From the NCBI RefSeq assembly GCF_003697815.1, contig NZ_RDQG01000023.1:1-59666 (forward strand): 59,666 nt of DNA, written 5' to 3'. How positions within the stretch are numbered: the first letter of the stretch is position 1; each line of letters begins with the position of its first letter. A program made the translations under genes and the position numbers. This DNA is from Halalkalicoccus subterraneus (GTDB taxonomy: Archaea; Halobacteriota; Halobacteria; Halobacteriales; Halalkalicoccaceae). Shown piece after piece: positions 25,741 to 43,822 of the stretch. The notes beneath the pieces are model-generated. The model was not told where the DNA came from. It ran no database searches and was given only the letters and a program-made list of their open reading frames with translations.

Positions 25741-25763
25741 CCGCCTATCGTCTACGAGTGACC

Positions 25764-26930
25764 ATGACAGGTGTACGAATCGCTGGCACGGGACACACCC
25801 ACTTCGGGCAGTTCCCCGAGCGCACGGGGCGGGACCTCTTCGCGGAGGCCAGCGGCGAGGCCATCGAGCAGTCGGGTATCGACCGCGACTCGATCGAGGC
25901 GCTCTTCTACGGGAACTTCATGGGCGAACTGGCGGAGGACCAGGGCCATCAGGGCCCGCTAATGGCCGAGATGGCGGGGATCCGAGCGCCCGCAACGCGC
26001 TTCGAGAGCGCGTGTGCCTCGAGCGGCGTCGCGGTGCGCGAGGCCGTCAAGGACGTCCGTAACGGCGAGGCGGACGCCATCCTCGTCGGCGGGGCAGAAC
26101 GCATGACCAACCTCGGGACCGCGGGCGCGACCAAGGCGCTGTCGATCGCCGCCGACGAACTGTTCGAGATCCGTGCGGGAATGAACTTCCCCGGCGCGTA
26201 CGCGTTGATGGCCCAGGCCTACTTCGACGAGTACGGCGGCGACCGGGAGGACCTGGCCCACATCGCGGTGAAGAACCACGAGAACGCCCTCGAGAACGAA
26301 CACGCCCAGTACCAGCGTGCGATCACCGTCGAGGACGTTCTGGAGGCTCCACCCGTCGCTGAACCGCTCGGGCTCTACGACGCCTGCCCGATCACCGACG
26401 GCGCGAGCGCGATGGTGCTCGTCAGCGACGAGTACGCCGAACGCGAGGGGATCGACGCGCCCGTTTCGATCACGGGAACGGGCCAGGGCAGCGATCGGAT
26501 AGCGCTCGCGGACCGCGAGTACCTCGTGCGCACGCCCGCGGCCACCGCGGCCGCCGAGGAGGCGTATGCGGATGCCGGAATCGGCCCCGAGGAGGTCGAA
26601 GTCGCGGAGGTCCACGACTGCTTCACGATCGCCGAGGTGCTCGCGGTCGAGTCGCTCGGCTTCTTCGAACACGGAGAGGGGATCGGGGCGGCCCGCGCGG
26701 GCGAGACGACGAGAGAGGGGCGGATCCCGATCAACCTCTCCGGGGGCTTGAAGGCGAAGGGCCATCCCGTGGGGGCGACCGGGACGAGCCAGATCATCGA
26801 GCTCTCGAGGCTGCTGGCGGGTGAGCACGTCAACAGCGACGCCGTTCCCGACGCCCGCATCGGCCTCGCGCATAACGCCGGCGGCACCGTCGCGAGTACG
26901 ACGGTTCACGTCTTGGAGGTCGCGCCATGA
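25764..26930 (+). CDS. Thiolase-domain protein (SCPx/acetyl-CoA acetyltransferase-like)
   Basis: A 388-residue SCPx-type thiolase. The nucleophile cysteine is in ESACASSGVAVREAV (about residue 85). The catalytic His segments are EVHDCFTIAEVL and GGLKAKGHPVGATGTSQ. These thiolases work with a small zinc-ribbon/OB-fold partner, which is the next gene, to make or cleave 3-ketoacyl-CoA. Its last bases, ATGA at 26927-26930, open a short ORF inside a 173-bp insertion that separates it from that partner. Confidence 0.92.
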   Translation: MTGVRIAGTGHTHFGQFPERTGRDLFAEASGEAIEQSGIDRDSIEALFYGNFMGELAEDQGHQGPLMAEMAGIRAPATRFESACASSGVAVREAVKDVRNGEADAILVGGAERMTNLGTAGATKALSIAADELFEIRAGMNFPGAYALMAQAYFDEYGGDREDLAHIAVKNHENALENEHAQYQRAITVEDVLEAPPVAEPLGLYDACPITDGASAMVLVSDEYAEREGIDAPVSITGTGQGSDRIALADREYLVRTPAATAAAEEAYADAGIGPEEVEVAEVHDCFTIAEVLAVESLGFFEHGEGIGAARAGETTREGRIPINLSGGLKAKGHPVGATGTSQIIELSRLLAGEHVNSDAVPDARIGLAHNAGGTVASTTVHVLEVAP

Positions 26931-27103
26931 GCGAAGCGAGGCGCCACGCGCCTCGGGAACGCGATCGGACCACGTCCGCGAGCGAGTGTAACGGGCGACT
27001 GGCGCGATTACGCCAGAGCGGGGCTCTGGCGGTAGTCGCACGAGGGAGCGTGAGCGAGCGAGTGTGGGGACGACGGAACGGAGTTCTGGAGAGGGAGTCA
27101 TGA
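26927..27103 (+). CDS. 58-residue ORF inside the insertion
   Basis: An unbroken short frame starting at the ATG that overlaps the thiolase stop (ATGA) and ending at a TGA that overlaps the OB-fold gene's ATG (TCATGA). The product is Arg/Ser/Glu-rich, beginning MSEARRHAPRERDRTTSA, and unlike a normal haloarchaeal acidic protein. It probably exists to carry ribosomes across the insertion, keeping the two genes coupled, and need not make a functional peptide. Confidence 0.35.
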   Translation: MSEARRHAPRERDRTTSASECNGRLARLRQSGALAVVARGSVSERVWGRRNGVLERES

Positions 27104-27108
27104 GCGAA
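26936..27108. mobile_element. 173-bp structured insertion with 9-bp flanking direct repeat
   Basis: The 9-mer ATGAGCGAA occurs at 26927-26935 (thiolase stop region) and again at 27100-27108 (start of the OB-fold gene). Between them lie hairpins GAGGCGC-CAC-GCGCCTC (26938-26954), CTGGCG-CGATTA-CGCCAG (26999-27016) and CGCCAGAGC-GGG-GCTCTGGCG (27011-27031), an enclosing GCGACT...AGTCGC pair, and a 12-bp direct repeat GCGAGCGAGTGT (26978 and 27054). This looks like a MITE-like element with a target-site duplication. No transposase is present. Confidence 0.5.
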
Positions 27109-27477
27109 CAACGCGACGAGGGCTACGACGAGTGGATCGCGGCGATCGACCGGGGCGAGGGCTACGCGCTCGAATGCCCGAACGGACACGGATCGCTGCC
27201 GCCGCGCAGGCTCTGTCCGGAATGCGGTGATCCCGACCTCGAAGAACAGCCGCTACCCGACAGCGGGACGCTCGATACCTATACCCGAATTCATGTCGCG
27301 ACCCCCGAGTTCGTCGATGACGCCCCCTACACCGTCGCGATCGTCGACTTCGGAATCACCCGTCTGACCGGCCAGCTTCGCGGGGTTGAGGAACCCGAGG
27401 CCGGGATACGCGTGGACGTCGGGGTCGAGGAGCGAGAAACCGAGGACGAACCGTTACTGGTCTTCCGACCCGCGTAG
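27100..27477 (+). CDS. Zinc-ribbon OB-fold protein (thiolase partner)
   Basis: A 125-residue protein of the DUF35 type. A rubredoxin-like zinc ribbon (CPNGHGSLPPRRLCPECG, about residues 26-43) is followed by an OB fold that starts at GTLDTYTRIHV. Such proteins bind acyl-CoA and form a complex with SCPx thiolases or HMG-CoA synthase, probably channelling the substrate. The first cysteine pair is CPNGH instead of the usual CxxC, so one zinc ligand may be His. It overlaps the convergent alpha/beta hydrolase gene by 24 bases. Confidence 0.85.
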   Translation: MSEQRDEGYDEWIAAIDRGEGYALECPNGHGSLPPRRLCPECGDPDLEEQPLPDSGTLDTYTRIHVATPEFVDDAPYTVAIVDFGITRLTGQLRGVEEPEAGIRVDVGVEERETEDEPLLVFRPA

Positions 27478-43438: not shown

Positions 43439-43822
43439 ATGGAAGAACAGACGGGGCTGAGTGATCAGTACCGAAAGGCCAGCCCGTGGCCGCTGTTTAT
43501 CGCACTGGGGCTCGCGGTCGCGGAGGTGGGCGTCATCTTCGATCTCGTTCCGATCGCGGTCGGCGGGATCCTGTTGCTCGTCGGCAGCCTCGGCGGGGTC
43601 ATGAGCGAATCCGGTTACACGGCGACGCCGTGGCGATTCATCGGCGCTCTGGGTGGCGTCTTCGTGATCGTCGGAATCGCCCTGACCGTGCTGTACCCGC
43701 TGGGTGGCGGCGGCGCCCTGAACATCGGCTTCCGTGGCGTGGCATTCGGCGTCGCAGGCTTCCTGTGTATTGTCGGGGCCCTTGGCGGCCGCTTTGTCGT
43801 CGAAGATCGATCCTCGGTGTGA
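43439..43822 (+). CDS. Small four-helix membrane protein of the cox cluster
   Basis: A 127-residue protein with about four hydrophobic helices and a short acidic start (MEEQTGLSDQYRKASPWPL). It includes Gly-rich helix packing such as GGILLLVGSLGGVMS. I know it only as a conserved neighbour of haloarchaeal cox genes with no established function. ATG 43430 in the same frame is a possible earlier start. It lies 38 bases after the zinc-finger gene. Confidence 0.62.
   Translation: MEEQTGLSDQYRKASPWPLFIALGLAVAEVGVIFDLVPIAVGGILLLVGSLGGVMSESGYTATPWRFIGALGGVFVIVGIALTVLYPLGGGGALNIGFRGVAFGVAGFLCIVGALGGRFVVEDRSSV

Follow-up and report, generated by a model that had tools for sequence, protein, structure and literature searches.

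The window analysed here is a stretch of 59,666 nucleotides from Halalkalicoccus subterraneus, with a GC content of 65%. It carries a thiolase gene followed on the same strand by an OB-fold gene, and the two are separated by an insert whose ends are marked by two copies of ATGAGCGAA (26927-26935 and 27100-27108), spaced 173 bp apart in the window sequence. A sequence-only reading of this DNA had pointed out this repeat; a third + strand copy lies at 43601. The features of the locus are listed below.

25758-26930, + strand: thiolase gene, the upstream partner (open reading frame; Pfam Thiolase_N, 3.7e-28, and Thiolase_C_1, 9.8e-39)
26915-26930, + strand: upstream junction with SD-like GGAGGT, spacer TCGCGCC and ATGA overlap, first copy (sequence; complementary to the 5' arm)
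26928-26930, + strand: TGA stop of the thiolase gene (open reading frame)
26927-27103, + strand: 58-codon micro-ORF from the thiolase ATGA to the OB-gene ATGA (open reading frame; no Pfam match)
26927-27039, + strand: unit 1, 113 bp, long form (homologous to a 113-bp insert in a genome of the same genus)
26937-26955, + strand: hairpin A of the 5' module, CGAGGCGC-CAC-GCGCCTCG (inverted-repeat search)
26966-26978, + strand: hairpin B of the 5' module, CGGAC-CAC-GTCCG (sequence inspection)
26978-26989, + strand: inner 12-bp repeat GCGAGCGAGTGT, copy 1 (direct-repeat search)
27000-27012, + strand: 5' arm TGGCGCGATTACG, in which TGGCGCGA exactly complements TCGCGCCA at 26920-26927
27013-27029, + strand: core hairpin of unit 1, CCAGAGC-GGG-GCTCTGG (match of covariance model R1 at 26990-27045, E 3.1e-12)
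27030-27043, + strand: decayed inner junction CGGTAGTCGC-ACGA (family alignment; consensus AGGTGGTCGC-ATGA)
27040-27099, + strand: unit 2, 60 bp, decayed (R1 at 27050-27105, E 0.026; covariance model R2 at 27046-27089, E 6.6e-4)
27054-27065, + strand: inner 12-bp repeat GCGAGCGAGTGT, copy 2 (direct-repeat search)
27074-27088, + strand: hairpin of unit 2, CGGAAC-GGA-GTTCTG (sequence)
27088-27103, + strand: downstream junction with SD-like GGAGAGGGAG, spacer and ATGA, second copy (sequence, direct repeat)
27100-27477, + strand: OB-fold/DUF35 gene of the ChsH2 type, the downstream partner (Pfam OB_ChsH2_C, 5.7e-12)

The sequence-only reading had described a 58-residue frame running from the old ATGA to the new start, together with hairpins and an inner 12-bp direct repeat. 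We found the frame at 26927-27103, closing on a TGA shared in part with the ATG of the OB gene at 27100, and located the hairpins and the repeat within the insert, the latter embedded in a 17-nt repeat of 88% identity. An exact inverted pair of 8 nt (26920-26927 and 27000-27007) connects the upstream junction with the 5' arm of the unit 1 hairpin, which spans 27011-27031 when counted as 9-bp perfect arms with a 3-nt loop. At the boundary between the units, at 27040, ATGA has decayed to ACGA and the inner stop and start are lost. Taken together with the family described below, the 173-bp insert reads as two decayed, fused units (113 and 60 bp) of a dispersed hairpin element. In the window, Rfam gave no match at or above the gathering score, and RNA stability was not unusual for its composition (z = -1.29).

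We next turn to relatives, where empty sites are common. The two genes meet in a direct ATGA overlap in four of the six same-genus relatives (L033, L034, L036 and L037), and among 80 named haloarchaeal loci, chosen by OB-protein similarity, overlapping little with the earlier genomes and with eight left unsorted by the script, 61 have the direct overlap and 11 a micro-ORF insert. The ATGA junction that had been proposed as the original state is thus borne out, and on this comparison the ancestral thiolase/OB junction is a direct overlap of stop and start. The two remaining Halalkalicoccus relatives carry inserts, of 50 bp in L035 and of 113 bp in L032, and the L032 insert shares homology with the first two thirds of that in the window. 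Since a homologous 113-bp insert exists in the same genus and four other relatives are empty, the window insert as a unit is more than chance. The OB protein of one same-genus genome (G004) is 84% identical to that of the window. Further inserts occur at thiolase/OB junctions in other families, one of them with two copies, and clean empty sites within the same genus are also present for leuC/leuD and L18e/L13. A genus tree from four proteins gave support too weak for ordering gains and losses.

Unit number varies at single junctions. The EIIA/HPr junction of three species of the window's genus (L226, L227 and L228) has one long, two or three units, and in three Natribaculum species (L347, L348 and L072) a shared thiolase/OB junction on a large replicon holds one or two units. 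In the Natribaculum luteum annotated record, the sole one examined, the unit is an unannotated spacer.

To survey the element more widely we used a covariance model, R1, built from ten junction hairpins, all thiolase/OB. Of 392 genomes of the order, 162 gave a match, often several of them, and these often as tandem copies with a period of 59 or 50 bp. We examined 91 sites (60 additionally fetched, 30 earlier loci and the window), and at 83 of them the element lies between two co-directed genes, with one or more micro-ORFs overlapping both by [AG]TGA and a 4-nt stop/start overlap at each step; R1 encodes neither the left side nor the frame of this layout. Among the eight exceptions, L073 is at a contig end, L114 is continuous in frame with the downstream gene, and the remainder, matched more weakly, lie in other settings.

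The flanking genes of the 83 sites form about 20 gene-pair clusters, whose names, except for the window's own pair, come from reading the sequences and not from a family search. The largest are thiolase/OB (41 of the 83 sites, which are therefore not independent), leuC/leuD (9), L18e/L13 (5) and EIIA/HPr (3), and single or double cases include etfBA, gcvPA/PB, an RPA pair, an ATP synthase subunit pair and ABC transporters. Because R1 includes the SD and start-codon columns it is biased towards junctions, and we also searched 40 genomes with a context-neutral model, R2, which lacks these columns and was trained on R1's elements. At E <= 1e-8, among the 23 matches listed, 22 were at such junctions and on the sense strand, and one was at a contig end; weaker R2 matches include other intergenic hairpins of similar plan. 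A strict hairpin pattern had found four matches, all thiolase/OB; the junction-specificity it suggested was overturned by the dispersal seen with the covariance model. The pattern had no match in viral contigs, and no relevant phage match was seen.

Copies tandem to one another are 0.967 identical, same-genome copies at other sites 0.664 and other-genome copies 0.600-0.615. Since same-genome copies are only slightly more alike than those of other genomes, recent within-genome bursts are not seen. The copies elsewhere that the sequence-only reading had proposed to search for do exist, mostly in other genomes: the window's own genome holds a single strong site, the second half of which R1 and R2 both recognise weakly, and the 173-bp unit searched against that genome returned short weak matches only.

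The same reading had taken the insert for a MITE-type element with target duplication, and here the evidence went the other way. A classic MITE, with terminal inverted repeats, a DDE transposase and target duplication, would fit a dispersed sequence that has no transposase gene and is flanked by a repeated ATGAGCGAA. However, the insert shows internal hairpins only, with no terminal inverted repeats seen, and within its own genome it has short, weak matches. The family's units, moreover, each have a single hairpin and can stand in tandem. The 9-bp repeat is itself start-codon context: ATGAGCGAA is among the commonest start contexts of the 83 sites, and at positions +4 to +15 the left and right flanks of a site match each other no better than those of other sites (p = 0.39, 83 sites), which argues that ATGAGCGAA is an ordinary start context and not a MITE-type duplication. 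Own flanks do resemble each other more than other sites' in the spacer that precedes the start codon (p = 5e-4). The ATGAGCGAA repeat alone is weak evidence of insertion, and we consider the MITE explanation very improbable.

Single units come in a 20-codon form of 59 bp or a 17-codon form of 50 bp, and more rarely measure 53, 56, 65 or 71 bp. Arrays are either relays of up to five micro-ORFs (118 bp, 20+20 codons; 100 bp, 17+17; 150 bp; 295 bp, five times 20) or fused into one ORF (119 bp, 40 codons; 110 bp, 37; 170 bp; 173 bp, 58), fusion occurring where the inner ATGA has gone or lies in another frame, as in the window. This frame design supports the earlier suggestion that coupling would survive the insertion. 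An open frame at nearly every site could also mean a conserved small protein gene, here between the thiolase and OB-fold genes. Against this, two reading frames (RVRRSxAPEVVA and ANASTPxxALEVVA) run through the same hairpin at different sites, the loop codon varies freely and the micro-ORF peptide has no Pfam match. Since the frames differ between sites, what is conserved is not the peptide but the nucleic acid and the coupling, and a small protein gene is hardly credible.

The hairpin covaries. Its core stem is 97.0% paired, with 42 double-change cells versus 10.9 in shuffles. For the arm, in statistics that ignore shared ancestry among sites, pairing with the upstream junction reaches 90.1% (19 double changes versus 5.8; permutation p = 2e-4 for complementarity), pairing with the downstream junction is weaker (83.0%; 10 versus 5.0), and the arm is nearer the left (upstream) copy in 25 of 30 informative units. 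This pairing could also possibly reflect quasi-palindrome correction or selection on RNA pairing. Two further explanations were considered.

According to the first, the element is a functional RNA switch in which the arm pairs either the upstream junction or the downstream SD/AUG, so that the hairpin tunes the downstream subunit per upstream translation event. Compensatory changes in both alternative pairings speak for it, as do the placing of the hairpin, right next to the downstream gene's SD, and the many sites at pairs of complex subunits, a class enriched among overlaps (PMC10666635). This last enrichment, however, already follows from residence at overlaps. The distribution is also patchy, with most relatives lacking the element at the same pair, and copy number at one junction ranges from one to three within a genus, a combination that suggests dispensability. 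We regard a switch as doubtful.

The second explanation dispenses with mobility: units would have formed locally, when template switching at the junction produced an inverted and a direct copy, and multiplied by slippage, while quasi-palindrome correction kept the arms complementary. It would account for an arm that tracks the local upstream spacer and for tandem copies that are nearly identical. Its extreme case is L149, whose two-unit array, with an exact 17-bp repeat (GGAGGTGTTCGACGATG), carries a 13-nt perfect inverted copy of the local target; this array departs from the ATGA relay. What in-place origin does not predict is the inner sequence, GAGCGAA..GTACGCC, which is common, together with conserved arm mismatches, to unrelated junctions in different families, and we think this origin unlikely.

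A link to a Y1 (HUH) transposase was unsupported, PF01797 being absent from six of the 14 carrier genomes (G001, G002, G006, G007, G008 and G042), some of which are drafts and one of which, G007, is near-complete; past supply of a transposase in trans is possible. PATEs (palindrome-associated transposable elements) and IS605-type ends are known in Haloquadratum and Natronomonas (PMC3119063), and the layout of the element is similar to that of the single-palindrome PATE form. Like the element, PATEs are haloarchaeal, lack a transposase gene and target duplication, and have a near-terminal palindrome that lies further from the 5' than from the 3' end; a 52-bp terminal-only form is known (PMC3119063). 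They differ, as far as the description goes, in that residence at stop/start overlaps with a coupling-keeping frame does not appear in that paper. The ends of IS200/IS605 elements and of REP/TnpA-REP systems share with the element a guide 5' of a hairpin, complementary to a flanking cleavage site (PMC8266576, PMC5934647), the element's own order being arm, hairpin, 10 nt and junction. Here a hairpin with a 5' guide-like arm complementary to the flank is present, and the junction would be the cleavage site. REPs, in contrast, are extragenic with a GTAG-type tag, and the element occurs in carriers that lack PF01797.

Palindromic repeats that stay in frame within coding DNA, and extend proteins, are represented by the Rickettsia palindromic elements. 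The haloarchaeal element is likewise palindromic and in frame, but sits between genes as ATGA-linked micro-ORFs. PMC10969869 and PMC1950309 both name the Rickettsia elements. Of 14 overlapping gene pairs tested in Haloferax volcanii and E. coli, 13 were strictly coupled (PMC6728339), and the termination-reinitiation described for H. volcanii (PMC6728339, PMC10666635) is the coupling route that an insert would have to preserve. These two papers describe overlaps and no hairpin micro-ORF inserts, the word 'hairpin' being absent from both texts, and a literature search, most subscription papers lying outside its coverage, found such inserts nowhere described.

The explanation we favour, and hold to be probable, is that the insert represents one copy of a hairpin element dispersed among haloarchaea and residing at overlapping stop/start codons in a form compatible with coupling; from its sequence we call it a putative non-autonomous palindromic repeat compatible with translational coupling. 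Each unit starts at the upstream gene's [AG]TGA, continues with the arm complementary to the upstream junction, a 7-bp hairpin and its own GGAGGTG-like sequence, and ends by providing a new [AG]TGA for the downstream gene. Since the unit is open in a frame ending on the TGA that overlaps the downstream gene, a ribosome leaving the upstream gene could traverse a micro-ORF of 17-58 codons, or a relay of several, and would reach the downstream start by termination-reinitiation. We infer that ribosomes do use this path, and that the element is a non-autonomous mobile repeat, tolerated because coupling is kept. By analogy with IS200/IS605 or REP ends, it may move with the arm as guide pairing the junction as cleavage site. 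More tentatively, it may be specialised for overlapping stop/start codons, with the arm pairing the SD-to-AUG region as target and a built-in minicistron, and so spread through operons of essential complexes with stoichiometric coupling unbroken.

The usual view is that overlapping stop and start codons are retained for the sake of subunit stoichiometry. A family of repeats inside such overlaps, with up to five units in a row and present even between ribosomal protein genes, would offer natural experiments on archaeal termination-reinitiation, and an example of a repeat that seems to survive according to the reading frame between genes.

Several further sequences were met outside this layout. 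Intergenic hairpins of the same plan (target, spacer, inverted target, hairpin, target-like end) with a different core occur at L198, L205, L207, L208 and L211, and L194, L204 and L206 hold another intergenic repeat (GAGGTCGCCGGCGC..GCGCCGGCTGCCAGAG) common to two genomes of one genus. The frame of a Nif3-like gene at L135 contains a related hairpin unit, placed after NGLQVG. In the window's own genome, a sequence at L002 1501-1534 (C68:7766-7799) repeats the 5' hairpin module of the window unit with 85% identity over 33 nt, where it reads as an in-frame insertion within a FAD-linked oxidase-like gene.
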